Assembly: GCF_004364975.1 (NCBI RefSeq)
Contig: NZ_SOBW01000009.1
Location: 124,001-188,000 of the forward strand
Length of the DNA stretch: 64,000 nucleotides
Direction of reading: 5' to 3'
DNA from: Gelidibacter sediminis
GTDB lineage: Bacteria > Bacteroidota > Bacteroidia > Flavobacteriales > Flavobacteriaceae
Below are positions 15,765 through 49,393 of this stretch, piece after piece (positions within the stretch are counted from its first letter, which is position 1; each line of letters starts with the position of its first letter). The notes under the pieces were generated by a model. The model ran no database searches. It saw only the letters and a list, made by a program, of their open reading frames with translations, and was not told the origin of the DNA. Made by a program: the position numbers and the translations under genes.

Positions 15765-15800
15765 AAAAAATGTCAGTTTCATTTGAAACTGACATTTTTT
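15765..15800. terminator. bidirectional intrinsic terminator, lplA / azurin
   Basis: A perfect 16-bp stem (AAAAAATGTCAGTTTC pairing with its reverse complement) and an ATTT loop. The A-tract on one side and T-tract on the other make it work in both directions between the two convergent genes. Confidence 0.9.
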
Positions 15801-27737: not shown

Positions 27738-27773
27738 TAAAAAACTCCTGATAGCCATCGGGAGTTTTTTTAT
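27738..27773 (+). terminator. intrinsic terminator after aconitase
   Basis: AAAACTCC and GGAGTTTT flank a TGAT...ATCG inner part, followed by a T-run (GGAGTTTTTTTATTTT). It lies 22 bases after the stop. Confidence 0.88.
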
Positions 27774-27782
27774 TTTAAGGCT

Positions 27783-28349
27783 ATGAAAATTTCAAAGAGT
27801 CAGCGTAACAATATTATTTTTTTGGGTATCATTTTGATCATGATCATTCCGCAAACGCGACAACCTATTCAAGTGTTTTTACAAAAGGGATTGGCCATGT
27901 TTAGTCCGTCTATTGTGGATGAAGAAGACCGCATCACTTTAAAAGATTACAATTGGCAATTGGTAGATGAACACGGTATGCGCTACGATTTTAATGAGGC
28001 TAAAGGGAAAGTGGTTTTTATCAATTTTTGGGCAACCTGGTGTCCGCCCTGTATTGCAGAAATGCCAAGTATGGAAAAGCTCTATCAAGATTATAAAGAT
28101 GATATGGTGTTTCTTTTTGTGTCTAACGAACAGCAAGAGGTCATTTCAAAATTTAAGCAGAAAAATGACTACGATTTTTTAGTGCATGCTTCAATTACTG
28201 CAAATCCAGTACAGTTGGAAACTTCAGCTATTCCGAGAACCTTCGTCATCGATCAGCAAGGACATATTTTGATTGATAAAACAGGGGCTGCAGATTGGAA
28301 TAGTAAAAAAGTAAGGGGTTTGTTGGATGAGCTTTTAAAACTTGAATAG
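27783..28349 (+). CDS. TlpA/ResA-like thiol-disulfide oxidoreductase
   Basis: A membrane-anchored periplasmic thioredoxin-fold protein of 188 residues. Residues 10-25 form the N-terminal membrane anchor, and the redox site WATWCPPC has Cys87 and Cys90. The cis-proline segment is SAIPRTFVIDQQG. These proteins keep apocytochrome or copper-site cysteines reduced. It is convergent with crtY and overlaps its end by 15 bases. It starts just after the aconitase terminator, so it is likely transcribed from its own start. Confidence 0.92.
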   Translation: MKISKSQRNNIIFLGIILIMIIPQTRQPIQVFLQKGLAMFSPSIVDEEDRITLKDYNWQLVDEHGMRYDFNEAKGKVVFINFWATWCPPCIAEMPSMEKLYQDYKDDMVFLFVSNEQQEVISKFKQKNDYDFLVHASITANPVQLETSAIPRTFVIDQQGHILIDKTGAADWNSKKVRGLLDELLKLE

Positions 28350-29492
28350 CACTTTAAAAAAAGCCTTGATAAACGCCATGGAGAATAAGGATTTCATAAT
28401 GGCCAGATCTTCTATAAAAGTAGTTTCTTCATCTAAAAACCGAAACATGGTTTGGATGGAGTTTTTCGAATAGAAGCGTTCAAAAATCCATACGCCTTTT
28501 TCGTTTTCATCGTGGAGCACTTTTAGAAATATCTTGTCGTAAAATTTATATTTCCTTTTGAATAGCTTGTGTGATGGTGCATGGCCAGCCTTAATATTGG
28601 CAATCAGCTTGGCTACGTTTTTTTCGGTATGCTTAAAGGAGTAGCCCGTAGAGCCTTTAACCCAACCGGCACCGGTACCAATTTTAGTGACGCTATTAGT
28701 GTGATACTTCCAGAAAAGGAAATCCGTCATCGGGATATTGCCCACTTCAGTTTCAATAATTCTATAATTTTCAAGATTATGTTCTTCTAAAAGATAGCGC
28801 TTTAAAAATGCATCGTAAATATCCGATGCTACAGTAAACGGAGTGAAAAAGGTATATTCCACGAGCGCTTTTGTTTCAGAAAAAGGAAGCAGATAAATAA
28901 AGCTCGTCGAATTTTTATACTGAAATCTGTAATCCATCATGGTAAAAGCTAACGGATTGAAACGCGGGGTATCGGTTTCAATAATCCAACCTTTAAAATG
29001 TTGGTGTATCAGGGTGTGCTCATCAGTCGCCGTATAAAATTCTTTTGGAACCCTGCTGTCAAAAATATGAGTTGCAGAATAGCTCTGTTTTTGTCCAATG
29101 ACTTTAGCAGTTGTGCCTTCTTGAATTTCTGCTACCGTATCTTCTATAAATTTAATATTGGAATGCTTTGATAGTTGGGTTTTCGAAGCCTCATAAAATT
29201 CTAGCGATCTTATGGTTTTGTAACAGTATTCTTGAAGCGGAATTTCTAAAGATATTTCAGACGATTTAAATTTTGCCGTATGCCAAGTTTGTTCAACAAT
29301 GGCATCCCATTGGCCGGCCCCTATTTCCCAAAAACTCCAGGTTTTATCATTACTATCTTTTGGGGAAGGATCAATGAGTCCAATAGTGTGCGATTTGAAA
29401 AACGGGTCTTTGGCAAGTTGTAGAGCCAATTGCAACCCAGCAAGACCATTTCCAATGATAATATAATCAAAAGACAATTTGTCTTGCATCAT
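28335..29492 (-). CDS. crtY: lycopene beta-cyclase
   Basis: Cyclises both ends of lycopene to beta-carotene. The 385 residues start with a dinucleotide-binding fold (DYIIIGNGLAGLQLALQLA) and contain the CrtY-type KTWSFWE and TKIGTGAGWVKGSTGYSFK segments. It is the last gene of the minus-strand operon crtI-crtB-crtZ-crtY, 19 bases after crtZ. It completes beta-carotene formation, which CrtZ then hydroxylates. Confidence 0.93.
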   Translation of the reverse strand: MMQDKLSFDYIIIGNGLAGLQLALQLAKDPFFKSHTIGLIDPSPKDSNDKTWSFWEIGAGQWDAIVEQTWHTAKFKSSEISLEIPLQEYCYKTIRSLEFYEASKTQLSKHSNIKFIEDTVAEIQEGTTAKVIGQKQSYSATHIFDSRVPKEFYTATDEHTLIHQHFKGWIIETDTPRFNPLAFTMMDYRFQYKNSTSFIYLLPFSETKALVEYTFFTPFTVASDIYDAFLKRYLLEEHNLENYRIIETEVGNIPMTDFLFWKYHTNSVTKIGTGAGWVKGSTGYSFKHTEKNVAKLIANIKAGHAPSHKLFKRKYKFYDKIFLKVLHDENEKGVWIFERFYSKNSIQTMFRFLDEETTFIEDLAIMKSLFSMAFIKAFFKVLFKF

Positions 29493-29511: not shown

Positions 29512-29961
29512 TTATTTTTTGAAATATTTAAATGGCACTACCAACATCCCAAAGCATTCCCCATCGTCCTTACCTAAATGTTTATGGTGCATCTTATGGG
29601 CGCGTCGCACGCCTTTGGCGTACCAATTATTAGCGTTTCTGAATATTTTAAAGCGTTGGTGTATAAAGATGTCGTGCACTGTAAAATAAGCGATGCCGTA
29701 AGCTAAGATGCCAAGTCCTAATGGCAGACAGTACCAAATGTTTTCATAGCTCCACAAATAGAAACAGATCATGCTGATAACCGCATAGAAAATAAAAAAG
29801 GCATCATTGCGCTCAAACCAACTTTTGTGATCTTTATGGTGATGATCCTTATGAAGGCTCCATAAAAAGCCATGCATGATGTACTTATGGGTAAACCACG
29901 CATTAAATTCCATGATGGCAAAAGTGCCAAAAAATATCAGTATCCAGAGAAAAATTTGCAT
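29512..29961 (-). CDS. crtZ: beta-carotene hydroxylase
   Basis: Adds 3-hydroxyl groups to beta-carotene to give zeaxanthin. It is a 149-residue membrane di-iron enzyme of the fatty-acid-hydroxylase superfamily. The histidine boxes are complete: HKYIMHG, HKDHHHKDH, HDIFIHQR and HKMHHKH. Four hydrophobic segments surround them. It sits 8 bases after crtB. Confidence 0.94.
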   Translation of the reverse strand: MQIFLWILIFFGTFAIMEFNAWFTHKYIMHGFLWSLHKDHHHKDHKSWFERNDAFFIFYAVISMICFYLWSYENIWYCLPLGLGILAYGIAYFTVHDIFIHQRFKIFRNANNWYAKGVRRAHKMHHKHLGKDDGECFGMLVVPFKYFKK

Positions 29962-29969
29962 GTCTAAAT

Positions 29970-30809
29970 TTACATTAAATTGAGTTGGTATTTGACGTAA
30001 CTTCGGGTTAAAAGTTCAAACTTTTTATAGTTGGGAACCCTAATTCTGGTCGATTTAATGTCCAACGCTGGGGTGTTTCTCAATTTCTTGAGGAGTTGGT
30101 TATAATATCTGTAAGCCATAAACACACCGAATTTGGCTTCAATTGGCAATTCCTTGATACCTTTTAGTCCCAAAGCAAAATCATGTTCAATATCATCAAT
30201 GATAGCTTTTTTAGACATTTCATCCAAATGGTTCAAATTGGTATTCGGAAAATAGGTGCGACTTAAATCTTCATAATCAGCTTTCAGATCACGTAAAAAG
30301 TTGACCTTCTGAAAGGCGGAACCTAAACTCATTGCGCTTTCTTTGAGAACCTCGTATTGGGCATGATCGCCTTTTACAAATACCTTTAAACACATTAAGC
30401 CTACCACATCAGCTGAGCCGTAGATGTACATTTTATAATCGGCTTCCGTTAAATAGTCGCTTTTGTGTAAATCCAAGCGCATGCTTTCCATAAAAGAATC
30501 TACAAGATGCTTGTCAATATTGAACTTGTGATACGTTTCCTGAAAGGCATTCAGAATGGGGTTCAAACTGATTTTTTGCTCCAATGCCAATTCTAAATCT
30601 TCCTCAAAACGGTTAAACAGGGATTGCTTATTATAGTCATGAAAGGAATCGACAATCTCATCAGCAAAACGTACAAAACCATAGATATTGTAAATATCCT
30701 GACGTATACTATTGGCCAACATTTTGGTGGCAAGAGAAAATGACGTGCTGTAAGAGTTGGTCACGGCCTTACTACATCGATGGGAAACGGTATCAAATAG
30801 CTGTTTCAT
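29970..30809 (-). CDS. crtB: phytoene synthase
   Basis: Condenses two geranylgeranyl diphosphates to phytoene. The 279 residues have the two metal-binding Asp-rich motifs: RFADEIVDSF (first) and NFLRDLKADYEDLSRTYFP (second). It overlaps the end of crtI by 17 bases, so translation is coupled. The geranylgeranyl diphosphate synthase that supplies its substrate is not in this window. Confidence 0.95.
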   Translation of the reverse strand: MKQLFDTVSHRCSKAVTNSYSTSFSLATKMLANSIRQDIYNIYGFVRFADEIVDSFHDYNKQSLFNRFEEDLELALEQKISLNPILNAFQETYHKFNIDKHLVDSFMESMRLDLHKSDYLTEADYKMYIYGSADVVGLMCLKVFVKGDHAQYEVLKESAMSLGSAFQKVNFLRDLKADYEDLSRTYFPNTNLNHLDEMSKKAIIDDIEHDFALGLKGIKELPIEAKFGVFMAYRYYNQLLKKLRNTPALDIKSTRIRVPNYKKFELLTRSYVKYQLNLM

Positions 30810-32280
30810 AATTTTTGAGGGTATGATGTTTCTTAATAAGCTCTGAAACCAATTTACCAGAAATGAGCGAAGGGGGTACTCCCGGTCCTGGTACGGTTAA
30901 TTGTCCCGTAAAATAGAGATTCTTTACTTTTTTACTTTTTAATTTAGGTCTTAAAAAAGCGGTTTGGAACAGGGTGTTTGCCATTCCGTAGGCGTTGCCT
31001 TTATAAGAATTGTAATCTTGAATAAAGTCATTGACGCAGAATGACTCTTTAAATATAATATTTTTTCGGACACTTTGCGAAGTTAAGTTTTCAAACCTAG
31101 CGATAATCTTGTCAAAATAAAGGGTTCTCAATGCTGGAGTATCCTCTAATCCGGGAGCCAGTGGAATCAAGAAAATTCCCGCCTCCTGACCTTCAGGTGC
31201 CACCGTTTGATCAGTAAGCGAAGGGAAACTGGCGTAAAATAAAGGATCCTTGGGCCATTGTGGTGTATCGTATATTTCTTTGGCGTGCACTTCAAAATCG
31301 ACATCAAAAAATAGTGTATGATGGTTCACATTGTTTAATTTCCTGTTAAAACCCACATAAAATAAGAGCGAAGAGGGCGCGAACACTTTCTTTTCCCAAT
31401 ACGTTTCAGAGTATTGGCGATGGGTGGCATCGAGCAAGGTTTCGGTGTGATGATAATCGGCACCGCTCAATACAATATCAAAAGGAAGAGTTTCGCCATT
31501 TGCTGTAATGCTCGTCACGTTTTCATTAGACACACTTATCTTATCAACTGATTGTTCAGTTTTAATGGTAACACCTAGACTAAGTGCTAATTGTTCCATA
31601 GCTAGAATGACTTGATACATTCCTTTTTTAGGATGAAAGGTGCCAATTCCGAAATCGGCATAATTCATAAAACTATAGAAGGATGGTGTGTTATCTGGTT
31701 TAGCGCCTAAAAAGAGGACGGGAAATTCTAAAATTTTTGCCAAGCGTTCATTTTTAAACTCCTTACGCACATCTTTTTTAATGGTGCTAAAAAATTGATC
31801 TAATTTTTTAATGGTCACAGGCGTCATCAACTCAAAAGGCGTTACACCCGGTCTGTACACCAAATCTTTTATGGCAACTTCATAATTGTGCTGCGCATTG
31901 TCGATAAATTTTCTAAGTTTTAACGAACTTCCTGGTTCTTCCTGTTCGAAGGTTTGACAAATTTTTTCTAATGTATCTGCAATGGTGATATAATCGTCCT
32001 TGCCGAAATAAACACTATAGGCGGGACTCAATTTATCGAGCTGATAGTAATCAGAAGGCTTTTTCCCAAAATCGGCAAAAAAACGTTCAAACACGTCGGG
32101 CATCCAATACCAGGTTGGACCGATATCAAAAGTAAATCCTTCTTTTTTAAGTTGTCTGGCGCGACCACCAATCGTTTTATTTTTTTCAAAAATGGTCACC
32201 TTGTAGCCGTCTTTCGCAAGATAGCAGGCAGCAGAGAGTGCAGAGAAACCAGAACCAATAATAGCAGTGTTGTTTTTCAT
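30793..32280 (-). CDS. crtI: phytoene desaturase (CrtI type)
   Basis: FAD-dependent desaturase that converts phytoene to lycopene. The 495 residues begin with the dinucleotide motif AIIGSGFSALSAACYLAKDG and FEKNKTIGGRARQ; the C-terminus carries the CrtI signature TVPGPGVPPSLISGKLVSE. The FAD motif begins only five residues after the ATG at 32280, so this start is firm. It is the first gene of the zeaxanthin operon, preceded by a 45-base gap that contains a promoter and a perfect inverted repeat. Confidence 0.96.
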   Translation of the reverse strand: MKNNTAIIGSGFSALSAACYLAKDGYKVTIFEKNKTIGGRARQLKKEGFTFDIGPTWYWMPDVFERFFADFGKKPSDYYQLDKLSPAYSVYFGKDDYITIADTLEKICQTFEQEEPGSSLKLRKFIDNAQHNYEVAIKDLVYRPGVTPFELMTPVTIKKLDQFFSTIKKDVRKEFKNERLAKILEFPVLFLGAKPDNTPSFYSFMNYADFGIGTFHPKKGMYQVILAMEQLALSLGVTIKTEQSVDKISVSNENVTSITANGETLPFDIVLSGADYHHTETLLDATHRQYSETYWEKKVFAPSSLLFYVGFNRKLNNVNHHTLFFDVDFEVHAKEIYDTPQWPKDPLFYASFPSLTDQTVAPEGQEAGIFLIPLAPGLEDTPALRTLYFDKIIARFENLTSQSVRKNIIFKESFCVNDFIQDYNSYKGNAYGMANTLFQTAFLRPKLKSKKVKNLYFTGQLTVPGPGVPPSLISGKLVSELIKKHHTLKNYETAI

Positions 32281-32311
32281 TGTTTAACAAATGTATTAAA
32301 AAGTTAAACAA
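32280..32311 (-). promoter_or_regulatory. predicted operator: 9-bp inverted repeat at the crtI promoter
   Basis: Read on the plus strand, TTGTTTAAC at 32280-32288 and GTTAAACAA at 32303-32311 are exact reverse complements with a 14-base spacer. The arms overlap the -7 element and the first base of the crtI start codon, so a protein bound here would block transcription. The MerR-B12 regulator encoded next door (32326-33228) is the obvious candidate. Confidence 0.65.
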
Positions 32312-32319
32312 AAAACAAT
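32288..32319 (-). promoter_or_regulatory. predicted crt operon promoter
   Basis: On the minus strand: ATTG (-33, 32316-32319), 20-base spacer, TACATTTG (TAnnTTTG, 32288-32295). The -7 box ends only 7 bases before the crtI ATG, so the predicted transcript is leaderless or nearly so. Confidence 0.6.
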
Positions 32320-32325
32320 TTAATT

Positions 32326-33228
32326 TTATGAAATTGTGGCTACTAAATTGCCAATAGTTTTAAAAGTAGTGATGGAGGTTGGCAGGTTTTGGGAATCAAT
32401 GTATTGGGTCATCTGCCCAAGTACCCATAATTGATTGTTGTTCCCGTTCAAGAGTTCAGACTCAAATTCGGCCAAATAGGAAGCCAATTCTTCTTTTACT
32501 GGTTTTATTGTGAAATAGGATAGAAACGTTATATCCTTGTAATAAGGTAAAATATCAGTTAAGCTACTAATAGGGACGCTTGATCCTAAAAAGATGGAAC
32601 GATGGCCTTTTGCTACCAATTTATAATGAACAAACATCAACCCAATTTCGTGAATTTCATTGTCTGGTAAAAATAGCACAAAAGCATTGTTGTGTTCAAT
32701 CTCGTTTTGCGCTTGTAGCATTTCCGTATTGATCAAAATCTTTTGACGAATGAGCGACGAAATGAAATGTTCATGGGCAGGGGTAATGGTGTCCGTTTGC
32801 CATAGTGTACCAATTTCTGAAAGCAAGGGTAAAAATAATTCATAAAAAACCTCAGATAATGATTTTGTTTTGATCAGTGCGTTGTAGGTTTTATTGAACA
32901 GCTCCTGATCAAAATCCAACATGGCCAATTTAAAAGTGTTGATGGCATGATTTTCAAGATGTCCCTTACTGGCCAATTCCCGCACTTGTAGGTGGATGTC
33001 CTGAGTAGATAGGGAAGCTATTTTTGAAATTTTGTGACCATTATTATTAAGGAAACTGATGTTCAATAATTTTTTTAAATGGTCTAAATTGTAGAATCTG
33101 ATGTTGGTATCTGTACGTTCCGGTTCGAGCAATTGATAACGCTTTTCCCAAATTCTGATGGTGTGTGCCTTTATTCCTGTAAGGTGTTCTAAATCCTTTA
33201 TACTGAATATGGTCTTAATATTGTTCAT
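32326..33228 (-). CDS. MerR-family regulator with B12-binding domain (CarH/LitR-like)
   Basis: A 300-residue protein with an N-terminal MerR winged helix (FSIKDLEHLTGIKAHTIRIWEKRYQLLEPERT), a helical bundle and a C-terminal cobalamin-binding domain. The CarH-type W-x9-EH motif is intact (Trp143, Glu153-His154). The lower-ligand motif reads E-x-H-x-x-G (191-196), with His193 kept but Glu in place of the usual Asp. In relatives, adenosylcobalamin-bound protein represses carotenoid genes in the dark and releases DNA in light. It sits directly upstream of crtI on the same strand, 45 bases away. I start it at 33228 (MNNIKTIFSI); an earlier ATG would add eight residues. Confidence 0.88.
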   Translation of the reverse strand: MNNIKTIFSIKDLEHLTGIKAHTIRIWEKRYQLLEPERTDTNIRFYNLDHLKKLLNISFLNNNGHKISKIASLSTQDIHLQVRELASKGHLENHAINTFKLAMLDFDQELFNKTYNALIKTKSLSEVFYELFLPLLSEIGTLWQTDTITPAHEHFISSLIRQKILINTEMLQAQNEIEHNNAFVLFLPDNEIHEIGLMFVHYKLVAKGHRSIFLGSSVPISSLTDILPYYKDITFLSYFTIKPVKEELASYLAEFESELLNGNNNQLWVLGQMTQYIDSQNLPTSITTFKTIGNLVATIS

Positions 33229-33249: not shown

Positions 33250-33257
33250 CAAAATTA
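33250..33257 (-). promoter_or_regulatory. -7 element for the MerR-B12 gene
   Basis: TAATTTTG (TAnnTTTG) on the minus strand, 21 bases before the ATG at 33228. No convincing -33 was found. The TTGTTTAAC repeat at crtI is not repeated here, so autoregulation is not evident. Confidence 0.35.
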
Positions 33258-33359
33258 CATTATTTTATGACAACTTGTTGAAGAAATTATAATTTAAACT
33301 AGTGATGGGATAAATAAGGATGAAAGCGGCAGAGGTGAAGTACTAAATCTGCATAATAG

Positions 33360-33444
33360 TGCGCACGAGAAGACTCGAACTTCCACGATCTAAGCGATCA
33401 CCAGCCCCTCAAGCTGGCGCGTCTACCAATTCCGCCACGTGCGC
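33360..33444 (-). tRNA. tRNA-Leu (anticodon GAG)
   Basis: The acceptor stem GCGCACG pairs with CGTGCGC, with discriminator A at 33360. The anticodon arm is CCAGC-TTGAGGG-GCTGG, giving anticodon GAG. A long variable arm and a T arm with TTCGAGT are present, as expected of a class II leucine tRNA. The CCA end is not encoded. It lies between the crt regulator and ku. Confidence 0.93.
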
Positions 33445-33876: not shown

Positions 33877-34650
33877 ATGAAATCAGTTTGGAACGGCACC
33901 GTAAGTTTTGGCCTTGTATCAATACCCATTAAAATGTATTCGGCTTCTGAAAGTCGAAACTTAGATTTGGACATGCTCGATAAACATGATCATGCACGCA
34001 TTAGGTATAAAAGGGTAAATGAAGAAACCGGAGAGGAGGTAGAATGGAAGGATATCGTGAAAGGGTTTAAAAAGGACGATGCATACGTCATTTTGGAGAA
34101 AGAGGACTTTGAAAATGCGAATGTCAAGAAAAGTAAGACTATTGACATAGAGGAATTTGTAGAAGAGACTGAAGTGGCAGATATGCTGTTTAAAAATCCC
34201 TATTATCTCGAACCTCAAAAAGAAGGGGGTAAGGCTTATAACTTATTGCGGGACGCTCTCAAGAAAACCGGTAAGTTAGGTGTTGCCACCTTCGTGATGC
34301 GTCAAAAAGAAAATCTATCGCTGATTGGGGTTTATAAAAATGTAATTGTTTTGCACGTTATTCGATTCGCCGAAGAAATTCGCGATCCGAAGGAAGTGAA
34401 AATTCCGAAAACCAAAACTTCAGACAAGGAAATTGCCATGGCCGAGGACTTGATTGAAAATTACACCGAAAAATTTAATTTCAAAAAATACAAAGATGTT
34501 TACAATAGCCAATTGCTCAAAATTATTGAGTCTAAAGCTTCAGGCAAAAAAGTAAAGGTTGAAAAAACAAAGAGTGAGCCAACTGCAGCCAAAGATTTAA
34601 TGGCCAAATTAAAAGCAAGTTTGGACCAACGCAAAAAGAAAGCCTCATAA
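33877..34650 (+). CDS. ku: Ku, end-binding protein of non-homologous end joining
   Basis: Homodimeric ring that binds DNA ends and recruits LigD. The 257 residues start exactly as bacterial Ku proteins do: MKSVWNGTVSFGLVSIPIKMYSA, then the core with RIRYKRVNEETGEEV, KNPYYLEPQKEGGKAYNLLRDAL. A Lys-rich tail (KKVKVEKTKSEP...KKKAS) closes it. The ATG at 33877 is chosen because the family begins there; the 37 codons upstream do not match. It is 3 bases from ligD, forming a two-gene NHEJ operon. Confidence 0.95.
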   Translation: MKSVWNGTVSFGLVSIPIKMYSASESRNLDLDMLDKHDHARIRYKRVNEETGEEVEWKDIVKGFKKDDAYVILEKEDFENANVKKSKTIDIEEFVEETEVADMLFKNPYYLEPQKEGGKAYNLLRDALKKTGKLGVATFVMRQKENLSLIGVYKNVIVLHVIRFAEEIRDPKEVKIPKTKTSDKEIAMAEDLIENYTEKFNFKKYKDVYNSQLLKIIESKASGKKVKVEKTKSEPTAAKDLMAKLKASLDQRKKKAS

Positions 34651-34653
34651 ATT

Positions 34654-37080
34654 ATGAGCCTGCAAGATTACCGAAAGAAACGCAATTTCAAGGATACCCC
34701 TGAACCCAAGGATATTCTAAATGATGATGATAAGCATCGGTTTGTTGTTCAACGCCACCGTGCCAGCCATTTGCATTACGATTTGCGATTGGAAATGGAA
34801 GGGGTGCTAAAAAGCTGGGCAGTTCCGAAGGGGCCTTCCATGAATCCGAAAGACAAGCGCCTGGCTGTACACACTGAAGACCACCCCGTGGCCTATCTCA
34901 CTTTTGAGGGGATCATTCCCAAAGGAAATTACGGCGCCGGTAAAATGACGATATGGGATAGTGGGGTTTATGAGAATCTTTATAAAGAGCATAATCTCAG
35001 TTCAGATTATGCCGAAGGAACATTAAAACTCGTTTTACACGGCGAAAAATTGAAAGGCATTTTTACCTTGGTGCGTTCGTCTTCAATGAATAAAAAGAAC
35101 CAATGGTTATTGATTAAGCATGACGATCAATTTGCGACCGCATTAGATTACGATGCCGAAGATTTTAGCTTGGAAGCATTTTCTACTGAAGCTTCAGATC
35201 AGTCTGCACAACTTAGTTTAAAGTCCTTGGTCAAACCGATGCTGGCATCGCCAGGCACCAAGATTTTTAACGATAAAAACTGGATTTACGAACTGAAATA
35301 CGATGGCTATCGAGCCTTGGCAACCATTACCAATGGCACGGTGGAGTTGTATTCTCGAAATGGCATTTCGTTAAATGAAAAATTTAAAGTTATTCATCAA
35401 CAATTAGAGCATTTGGAGCATACAGCCATATTGGACGGTGAGATTGTGGTGTTGGACCAAACCGGTTTACCCCAATTTAATGCTTTACAAAATTATGACT
35501 CTGACCGGACGGAAGGTATCTTGGTTTATTATATTTTCGATTTACTTCACCTCAACGGTCACGACACCGTAAATCTGCCATTATTAGATAGGAAAGCGTT
35601 GCTAAAGGAGTTGTTGCCTGATGTGTCGCATATTCAGTATTGCGATCATGTGGAAGCTATGGGGATTACGGTGTACCAGCAGGCCATCAACATGGGTATG
35701 GAAGGGGTTATCGCCAAAAAAGCCGATTCAACTTATGACATCAATGTGCGTTCTTCTCAGTGGTTAAAATTCAAAAAAATTGAAAATACGGAAACCATCA
35801 TTTGTGGCTACACGCTGTCTACCAACAAATCACGGAAATTTGCATCCCTTATTTTAGGAATGGTGGAAGATGATGAGCTTGTATATGTGGGTACCTGTGG
35901 CTCAGGATTTTCAGAAAATCAAATTTCTGAGCTTTACAACAAGTTTAAGGTACTGGAAACCGACACCCCAATATTTGATATTACTAAACATCTTAAAGGA
36001 CGTAAAGCAGTTTGGTTGGTACCTAAATTAGTGTGTGAGGTCAAATTTTCTGAATGGACACCGTCCAGAGTGATGCGACATCCAGTTTTTTTAAGAATGA
36101 GGGAAGATAAAACCATTGCGTTTGATAGTCTTTCAAATGAAGAACCATCGCCTAAAAAACTATCGTCCTCTCACTCCGAATTTTCATTAGATATTGACGG
36201 TATAACCGTACAAATTACCAATCCCGATAAATTATACTGGCCCAATCCGCCGTTGACAAAGTATGATCTGCTCGATTACTACATCAAAATATCCGATTAT
36301 ATTTTGCCCTACCTCAAAGACCGACCGGAAAGTCTGCACCGGCACCCCAACGGCATTTTAGAAGATTCCTTCTATCAGAAAGACCATGAGAATCTACCAA
36401 CCTGGATTGAAACCATCGAAATTCCGTCAAAATCTTCAGGTAAGCATATTAATTACCTGCTGTGTCAAAACCAGGCCACTTTACTTTATATGAATAATTT
36501 AGGCTGTATTGAATTGCATCCGTGGCATTCTACGATCTATCAGTTAAATCAGCCTGACTATGCCATCATTGATTTAGATCCGTCAACTGAAAACAGCTTT
36601 GAAGAGGTTATTGAAACCGCTTTAATGGTCAAACAAGTTTTGGATCGGGCAAAAATTAAAGGATTCTGTAAAACCTCAGGTGCGTCGGGACTTCATATAT
36701 ATATTCCCATGGGAGGGCTGTACACCTACGAAGAGGCACGCGATTTTACTAAACTGCTGTGTGTATTTGTCCATGAGGCCTTACCTGAAATTACAACATT
36801 AGAGCGCTCCTTAAAAAAACGCGGACCAAAAATTTATTTGGATTATTTGCAGAATAGGAAGGGGCAAACTATAGCATCAGCATATAGCGTGCGCCCTCAA
36901 AAACTAGCAACGGTTTCTACGCCTTTGCAATGGTCTGAAATTAAACCAGGGTTGGAAATTCAAGACTTTACAATGAAAACCGTACCAGATCGGTTGGCGA
37001 CCATCAAAGATGTATTTAAAGGTGTACTGAAAAAAGGGATTGATATGGAACAAGCATTAAATAATCTGATGGAATCTTAA
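34654..37080 (+). CDS. ligD: multifunctional DNA ligase D
   Basis: ATP-dependent end-joining ligase of 808 residues with domain order phosphoesterase - ligase - polymerase. The 3'-phosphoesterase (about 25-165) keeps His35, His41, Asp43 and His77. The ligase (about 195-490) has its adenylated Lys215 in YELKYDGYR. The C-terminal primase-like polymerase (about 525-790) has the DLDPS metal motif and the typical KLYWPNPPLTKYDLLDYY opening. All three catalytic sites look intact, so a complete two-component NHEJ system is present with Ku. Confidence 0.95.
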   Translation: MSLQDYRKKRNFKDTPEPKDILNDDDKHRFVVQRHRASHLHYDLRLEMEGVLKSWAVPKGPSMNPKDKRLAVHTEDHPVAYLTFEGIIPKGNYGAGKMTIWDSGVYENLYKEHNLSSDYAEGTLKLVLHGEKLKGIFTLVRSSSMNKKNQWLLIKHDDQFATALDYDAEDFSLEAFSTEASDQSAQLSLKSLVKPMLASPGTKIFNDKNWIYELKYDGYRALATITNGTVELYSRNGISLNEKFKVIHQQLEHLEHTAILDGEIVVLDQTGLPQFNALQNYDSDRTEGILVYYIFDLLHLNGHDTVNLPLLDRKALLKELLPDVSHIQYCDHVEAMGITVYQQAINMGMEGVIAKKADSTYDINVRSSQWLKFKKIENTETIICGYTLSTNKSRKFASLILGMVEDDELVYVGTCGSGFSENQISELYNKFKVLETDTPIFDITKHLKGRKAVWLVPKLVCEVKFSEWTPSRVMRHPVFLRMREDKTIAFDSLSNEEPSPKKLSSSHSEFSLDIDGITVQITNPDKLYWPNPPLTKYDLLDYYIKISDYILPYLKDRPESLHRHPNGILEDSFYQKDHENLPTWIETIEIPSKSSGKHINYLLCQNQATLLYMNNLGCIELHPWHSTIYQLNQPDYAIIDLDPSTENSFEEVIETALMVKQVLDRAKIKGFCKTSGASGLHIYIPMGGLYTYEEARDFTKLLCVFVHEALPEITTLERSLKKRGPKIYLDYLQNRKGQTIASAYSVRPQKLATVSTPLQWSEIKPGLEIQDFTMKTVPDRLATIKDVFKGVLKKGIDMEQALNNLMES

Positions 37081-49359: not shown

Positions 49360-49393
49360 AAAAAAGGCTATCATTAATGTGATAGCCTTTTTT
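49360..49393. terminator. bidirectional intrinsic terminator
   Basis: A perfect 14-bp stem (AAAAAAGGCTATCA and its reverse complement) with loop TTAATG. It separates the convergent FKBP lipoprotein and beta-barrel genes. Confidence 0.92.

Follow-up and report, generated by a model that had tools for sequence, protein, structure and literature searches.

We analysed a 64,000-nucleotide (nt) stretch of a Gelidibacter sediminis contig (NZ_SOBW01000009.1, positions 124,001 to 188,000), hereafter the window, in which a gene for a CarH-like regulator of the MerR-B12 type heads a run of carotenoid genes. On the minus strand the order is merR-B12 (from here on merR), a gap, crtI, crtB, a crtZ-like gene and crtY (Table 1). 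The label crtZ-like is one we assume from position and a histidine-rich sequence; a Pfam search with this protein gave no match at E<=1e-3. A first-pass annotation, made from the sequence alone, had described a 45-base merR-crtI gap and, over the -7 element and start of crtI, an exact 9-bp inverted repeat with a 14-base spacer. Both are as described: the gap is 32281-32325, and the arms TTGTTTAAC and GTTAAACAA occupy 32280-32288 and 32303-32311. Read on the crtI strand, this putative operator is TTGTTTAACTTTTTAATACATTTGTTAAACAATG, and its second arm overlaps TACATTTG (32295-32288) and the start codon (ATG, 32280-32278), the dyad spanning both. TAnnTTTG, which we take to be the Bacteroidota promoter (-7) consensus, stands in the same register in 83 of 90 homologous sites. 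A TTG lies 20 nt before TACATTTG in the window; a logo of the homologous sites contains no conserved -33 element, and no conserved TTG outside the left arm.

Taken by itself, the inverted repeat is weak evidence and hardly significant. The window holds 54 perfect 9-bp inverted repeats with spacers of 0-20 nt, four of which have the 14-nt spacer, against a mean of 0.75 in 20 simulated windows, and some perfect 9-bp inverted repeat appears in 2.7% of shuffles of the merR-crtI gap. Neither arm occurs a second time in the window in either orientation. In the other three spacer-14 repeats (15767-15798, 27739-27770 and 49361-49392) complementarity extends into the spacer, and they look like hairpins, perhaps terminators. 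The operator is accepted because it is conserved across loci, and it is on conservation that chance is rejected as its origin.

In all, 168 distinct merR loci were gathered, 12 of them from named genomes; nine of these 12 are from Gelidibacter, with regulators 75-90% identical. The loci fall into a Flavobacteriaceae set of 146 and an other set of 22, the latter including L178, which comes from a Flavobacteriaceae genome and encodes a distant homologue. merR precedes crtI in tandem in 141 loci of the Flavobacteriaceae set. Of the 99 loci whose gap is at least 34 nt, 92 have the operator with no more than three mismatches (87 with no more than two), which bears out the expectation of the first-pass annotation that both arms would be conserved in related genomes; of the 42 with a shorter gap, none has it. 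The spacer is 14 nt in 90 of the 92 and 15 nt in two. Alignment of the 90 sites reveals nine invariant positions (0-based): G2, T3, A17, T20, T21, T25, A28, C29 and A30. A search free of any template finds spacer-14 palindromes with at least eight of nine pairs in 80 of the 99 gaps, against 6.3 in shuffles. The even spacers 12, 16 and 18 (55, 80 and 53 gaps) reflect the same dyad, narrower or wider, and odd spacers give 2-10 gaps against 5-9 in shuffles.

TAAACA, the half-site seen here, conforms to the TnnACA published for CarH (PMC9304148, PMC8156234; papers are cited by PubMed Central number and drawn on through excerpts of their text), and both inverted half-sites are present in 87 of 90 sites. 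A tandem TnnACA pair of the CarH direct-repeat type within 35 nt occurs in only 8 of the 90; with 82 lacking one, tandem 11-bp direct repeats were rejected as the form of this operator. In the other set, a scan made without a chance control shows a spacer-14 dyad of the same look in nine of 22 loci, downstream of merR in L162, L163, L164, L166 and L171 and upstream in L011, L168, L178 and L180. Outside Flavobacteriaceae the arms show paired changes, for instance TTGTTTAAT/ATTAAACAA in L163. Five further loci (L170, L173, L174, L176 and L177) have spacers of 13 or 15 nt only, with perfect arms at 15 in L174, and eight of the 22 have no dyad. The dyad beyond Flavobacteriaceae is thus suggestive only.

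The regulator is a CarH-type protein, as the first-pass annotation had it, by sequence, motifs and predicted fold. Pfam recognizes MerR_1 (E 1.1e-13), MerR and B12-binding_2 (E 2.1e-10); the MerR helix-turn-helix and B12-binding_2 are assigned in this way, the Rossmann half by predicted structure only. The NCBIfam CarH equivalog model matches the window protein with E 4.4e-22 and 78.6 bits, below its cut-off of 400, and is matched at E<=1e-3 by all 77 members of set A1. A sequence search of PDB places Thermus CarH chains first (E 1.8e-14 for the single protein, 1.4e-21 for the profile). An AlphaFold model built on a 77-row alignment has a mean pLDDT of 90.6. Its first 12 PDB matches in Foldseek are full-length Thermus thermophilus CarH (TtCarH; TMq 0.52-0.59), followed by the TtCarH B12 domain and CtMerR; among the 50 rows listed, isolated TtCarH B12 domains have TMt 0.77-0.83.

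The residues singled out earlier are all present: Trp143 and Glu153-His154 (W-x9-EH), and His193 within Glu191-x-His193-x-x-Gly196. The first-pass annotation had read E-x-H-x-x-G as an Asp-to-Glu variant, and this was wrong. It is the classic CarH motif, printed as E-x-H-x2-G-x41-S-x-V/T-x22-27-GG (PMC8156234) and present in TtCarH in our alignment, and the proposed novelty is rejected. In the Flavobacteriaceae proteins G140, W143, E153, E191, H193 and G196 are found in 146 of 146 and H154 in 139; in the other set W, E153, H154 and H193 are found in all 22, E191 in 21 and G196 in 16. Three of the four elements of the SignatureFinder signature for light-responsive cobalamin-binding domains (GxxW, EH, GxxH, GxxxP) are present in the window protein, GxxH reading NxxH. 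Judged from sequence, the real departures from TtCarH are Gln at the position of His132, a B12 motif whose second half has diverged (S237-Y238-F239 in the window, with a single invariant G271), and inverted TnnACA half-sites in place of 11-bp direct repeats.

A degenerate copy of the operator, new here, lies over the start of merR itself. Position -29 is T in 137 of 146 upstream regions and position -28 is A in 115, and the pattern runs T(-29)A(-28)nnTTTG(-22)TTTAA, a 14-nt spacer, then an arm that enters the start codon (rATGAACAA, Met-Asn-Asn) and is coding, which confounds its conservation with constraint on the protein. The -7 element overlaps the left arm at merR and the right arm at crtI. 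Register -21 is seen in 13 loci, with the right arm GATAAACAA in ten of them and arms that pair nine of nine (TTGTTTATC/GATAAACAA) in two. In register -24 a TTGTT-like left arm is found in 112 loci, 101 of which pair only six or seven of nine. The template-free count is weaker here (at least seven of nine pairs in 77 of 146, against 36.7 in shuffles). At up to four mismatches and a lenient spacer range, in counts made without shuffles, an upstream match is found in 39 of 42 short-gap loci (30 at exactly -24 with spacer 14) and in 81 of 99 long-gap loci (36 at -24 with spacer 14). This fits, but does not prove, a single promoter shared by merR and crtI in the short-gap genomes.

Occurrence of the operator follows that of merR. 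At one mismatch or fewer the operator is found in 187 of 299 genomes of the family, against 16 of 299 for the reversed pattern. Where a genome has a close merR homologue, 179 of 220 carry it, compared with 3 of 22 whose only homologue is distant and 5 of 57 that have none (close versus rest, p 4.5e-30), close and distant being divided at a best E of 1e-60, a cut-off of our choosing. The genome of G. sediminis has a match to the PduO-type adenosyltransferase family PF01923. Of the 276 genomes with PF01923, 237 have merR, against 5 of the 23 without (p 1.5e-10), an association confounded by reduced or incomplete genomes and with three of the 23 assigned by absence among the matches.

The first-pass annotation placed the operator over the carotenoid promoter. 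This holds at crtI, and the site is not confined to it, recurring beyond the degenerate merR copy before photolyase/FolE, TetR, fasciclin and rhodopsin genes; these operators are also new here, all except those at rhodopsin genes being found in the window's own genome. There a site with one mismatch precedes a run of TetR_C_23, ABC1 kinase and SDR/DUF2867 genes, one with two mismatches precedes a run encoding a 141-aa protein, FolE, GSHPx, TspO, a 159-aa protein and photolyase (L212), and a third, also with two mismatches, precedes a fasciclin gene. The first two lie in one block on another contig (L212:3189-11355: photolyase, 159 aa, TspO, GSHPx, FolE, 141 aa, SDR/DUF2867, ABC1 kinase, TetR); the 141-aa protein of this block has no Pfam match. 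We classed 72 sites, the best listed sites plus hand-picked listed non-crtI sites and hence not a random sample, by BLAST of the genes behind them against 19 reference proteins: crtI 13, TetR_C_23 13, fasciclin 12, the 141-aa protein 9, Porph_ging 5, and one each for FolE, SDR, SDR/DUF2867, photolyase, fatty-acid desaturase, GHMP kinase and rhodopsin. Nine were unclassified and four had no open reading frame within 200 nt. This target set overlaps the light-induced genes of Pseudomonas LitR, which comprise PhrB, FolE and CryB with a short-chain dehydrogenase in the cluster (PMC9758184).

Rhodopsin (PF01036) gives 74 matches in 71 of the 299 genomes and none in the window's own genome. Upstream regions of 51 of the 74 (up to 250 nt each, one only 58 nt) were searched with the spacer-14 motif. 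One holds a perfect site, 8 a site with at most one mismatch, 15 at most two and 25 at most three, while the reversed regions give none at two or fewer and two at three or fewer, and shuffles lead one to expect 0.05 at three. Three rhodopsins (L247-L249), about 24% identical to the query, have no site (5-7 mismatches). For the remaining 48, a count by hand finds a site in 24 of 41 merR-positive genomes and 1 of 7 merR-negative genomes (p 0.044), the sole merR-negative genome with a site being a 73%-complete assembly.

Table 1. Genes and sequence features of the merR-crt locus (window coordinates)
Feature	Position	Strand	Remarks
MerR-B12 regulator, CarH-like	32326..33228	-	300 aa, ATG at 33228
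crtI	30793..32280	-	NCBIfam NF058655 728.5 bits, cut-off 640; model name bifunctional phytoene desaturase/3,4-desaturase
crtB, phytoene synthase	29970..30809	-	Pfam SQS_PSY E 1.1e-46
crtZ-like hydroxylase	29512..29961	-	named from position and histidine-rich sequence
crtY, lycopene cyclase	28335..29492	-	Pfam Lycopene_cycl E 2.1e-50
Putative crtI operator TTGTTTAAC-N14-GTTAAACAA	32280..32311	.	two inverted TnnACA half-sites
TACATTTG, probable Bacteroidota -7 element inside operator	32288..32295	-	read from sequence
Degenerate operator over merR start TTGTTTCAT-N14-AATGAACAA	33221..33252	.	window sequence; family pattern TAnnTTTGTTTAA...rATGAACAA
TAATTTTG, probable merR -7 element	33250..33257	-	overlaps left arm of degenerate operator

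Beside the merR-crt locus, adjacent plus-strand genes for Ku and LigD (33880-37080) form a bacterial end-joining pair, LigD having phosphoesterase, ligase and primase-polymerase domains. A tRNA-Leu gene (anticodon gag; 33359-33444, minus strand) lies between merR and this pair.

We consider it probable that the regulator depends on adenosylcobalamin (AdoCbl) to repress a Bacteroidota photoprotection and phototrophy regulon in the dark, and that light releases it; its cofactor, light response and DNA binding are what we infer. On the evidence of sequence and predicted structure, it would represent a Bacteroidota branch of the CarH/LitR family of B12 photoreceptor-repressors. In the dark, an AdoCbl-bound oligomer would sit on the inverted TnnACA half-sites and block RNA polymerase at the TAnnTTTG of crtI, and would repress merR itself more weakly at its degenerate site. 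Light would break the Co-C bond, the oligomer would rearrange and release the DNA, and crtIBZY would be made. The same operator would draw the photolyase/FolE/TetR-ABC1 genes, fasciclin and, in rhodopsin-bearing relatives, proteorhodopsin genes into one light regulon. The inverted 23-bp register is unlike tandem 11-bp repeats, so the geometry of the oligomer should differ as well.

Several observations weigh against this reading. Locus and genome counts ignore kinship and are not phylogenetically independent. Seven long-gap loci (L023, L027, L036, L075, L077, L127 and L139) have no operator, and the site upstream of merR is degenerate, that of the window included. In the genome of G. sediminis, three mismatches yield 18 sites against 14 control sites, so that only the best sites are trustworthy, and two of the three non-crtI targets there carry two mismatches. 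The TetR gene also carries the operator, which is found in 7 of 22 TetR-positive genomes without a close merR. Five genomes have merR and no PF01923 match, other adenosyltransferase types not having been searched; four of these five merR proteins were examined and keep W143, E153, H154, E191, H193 and G196. In the protein itself, Gln144 occupies the TtCarH His132 position, a Gln shared by 143 of the 146 proteins. Where the B12 motif should continue with SxV/T...GG, the window protein has SYF...GQ; 122 of the 146 have Asn for the Gly of the SignatureFinder GxxH; and no Pfam Rossmann B12-binding model was listed at a maximum E of 1 (most matches above 0.1 being filtered). Seven of the 146 proteins (L146, L147, L152, L154, L155, L156 and L158) have ER instead of EH, with W and E-x-H-x-x-G intact in each; six have a crtI operator at one to three mismatches, and the seven are perhaps a B12-altered, CarA-like branch. 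The H132A variant of TtCarH was reported to remain mostly tetrameric in the light, an earlier study having seen disassembly (PMC10442372). CtMerR, with Arg at this position, still monomerizes, and SasPcob has Gln there (PMC11796333), so a protein with Gln144 could still respond to light; a bis-His light state of the TtCarH kind would be impossible with Gln144.

Much of this evidence would suit a MerR protein that binds the operator and senses something else, be it cobalamin supply, redox state or singlet oxygen, or a partner protein, as in the cases of class II LitR with LOV and CarA with CarS. Gln144, the divergent motif half, the missing Rossmann match and the ER proteins all point this way, as does the fact that class II LitR and CarA act without B12 (PMC9758184, PMC9304148). 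We think it unlikely all the same. W, E and E-x-H-x-x-G are kept in 146 of 146 proteins and H154 in 139, class II LitR is described as keeping only the four-helix bundle where a full CarH-like B12 domain is predicted here, the targets include photolyase and rhodopsin, and merR tracks the adenosyltransferase.

A different binder is less probable still. TetR_C_23, whose gene carries the operator, is the likeliest candidate, with merR a mere neighbour; its genes stand behind 13 of the 72 sites examined, and the TetR-positive genomes without a close merR that have the operator would be explained. The two-by-two count makes TetR_C_23 unlikely: the operator is present in 32 of 45 genomes with merR and no TetR, in 147 of 175 with both and in 1 of 57 with neither. 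Moreover, the half-site is the TnnACA of CarH, and merR itself carries a degenerate operator. Finally, the conserved stretch contains TAnnTTTG and abuts the start codon, and could in principle be a strong AT-rich promoter and start context with no operator in it. This we regard as highly improbable, given that the left arm lies outside the -7 element, G2 and T3 are the same in 90 of 90 sites, the spacer is 14 nt in 90 of 92, the arms show paired changes in other families, and whole genomes contain an excess over the reversed pattern. The AdoCbl-dependent repressor is the explanation we favour.

Flavobacteria matter as users of light in the sea, and some of them express proteorhodopsin in a light-dependent manner. 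The open-licence literature, in the excerpts searched, names no regulator of proteorhodopsin in this group. Operators at rhodopsin, photolyase and carotenoid genes would supply a named protein and a named site, and they predict that B12 availability controls these genes. If true, the finding would add to CarH biology a further operator geometry and a light state that does without His132. We hold as evenly balanced the broader claim of a Bacteroidota-wide B12 photoreceptor regulon, in which a CarH-like repressor with a non-bis-His light state and a palindromic operator would switch carotenoids, photolyase/pterin repair, fasciclin and proteorhodopsin together, with B12 supply gating light harvesting as well as photoprotection in flavobacteria. 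Published work on flavobacteria names a putative MerR-family gene next to crtI (PMC5887021, PMC4732338, PMC11855829). Within the excerpts of the open-licence literature searched, subscription journals and preprints lying outside the search, no operator, B12 or light test, or regulon of the Bacteroidota protein is described. Light-induced carotenoids of Chryseobacterium lacus were dropped as support, the authors of that study having found no lit or car genes in its genome by the excerpted account (PMC7064467).

Among known systems, the class II LitR proteins of Pseudomonas (PplR/PmlR) share the PhrB, FolE, CryB and short-chain dehydrogenase targets; the excerpts describe them as having no Rossmann half in their B12 domain and as acting with a LOV protein (PMC9758184). 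The sites of Myxococcus CarA are described as inverted repeats near -35 (PMC9304148), which resemble the inverted operator here; unlike the present regulator, CarA lacks W-x9-EH (PMC8156234) and works independently of B12. Cystobacter CarH, which forms a dimer with AdoCbl bound, differs from the arrangement seen here in needing two repeats in tandem (PMC9304148). Chloracidobacterium CtMerR (PDB 8jbs), reported as light-responsive with Arg at the His132 position, matches in B12 domain fold at 16-17% identity. The best match in both sequence and fold is TtCarH (PDB 5c8d/5c8e/5c8f), which shares the MerR DNA-binding domain, the four-helix bundle and Rossmann B12 domain (here predicted), W-x9-EH, E-x-H-x-x-G, the TnnACA half-site and a carotenoid target. 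Identity to its full-length chains is 18-21% (Foldseek), and Gln here replaces His132. Where TtCarH and BmCarH have tandem 11-bp direct repeats (three in the case of TtCarH), the operator described here has an inverted pair of half-sites in a 23-bp register and serves an apparent regulon larger than that of TtCarH.

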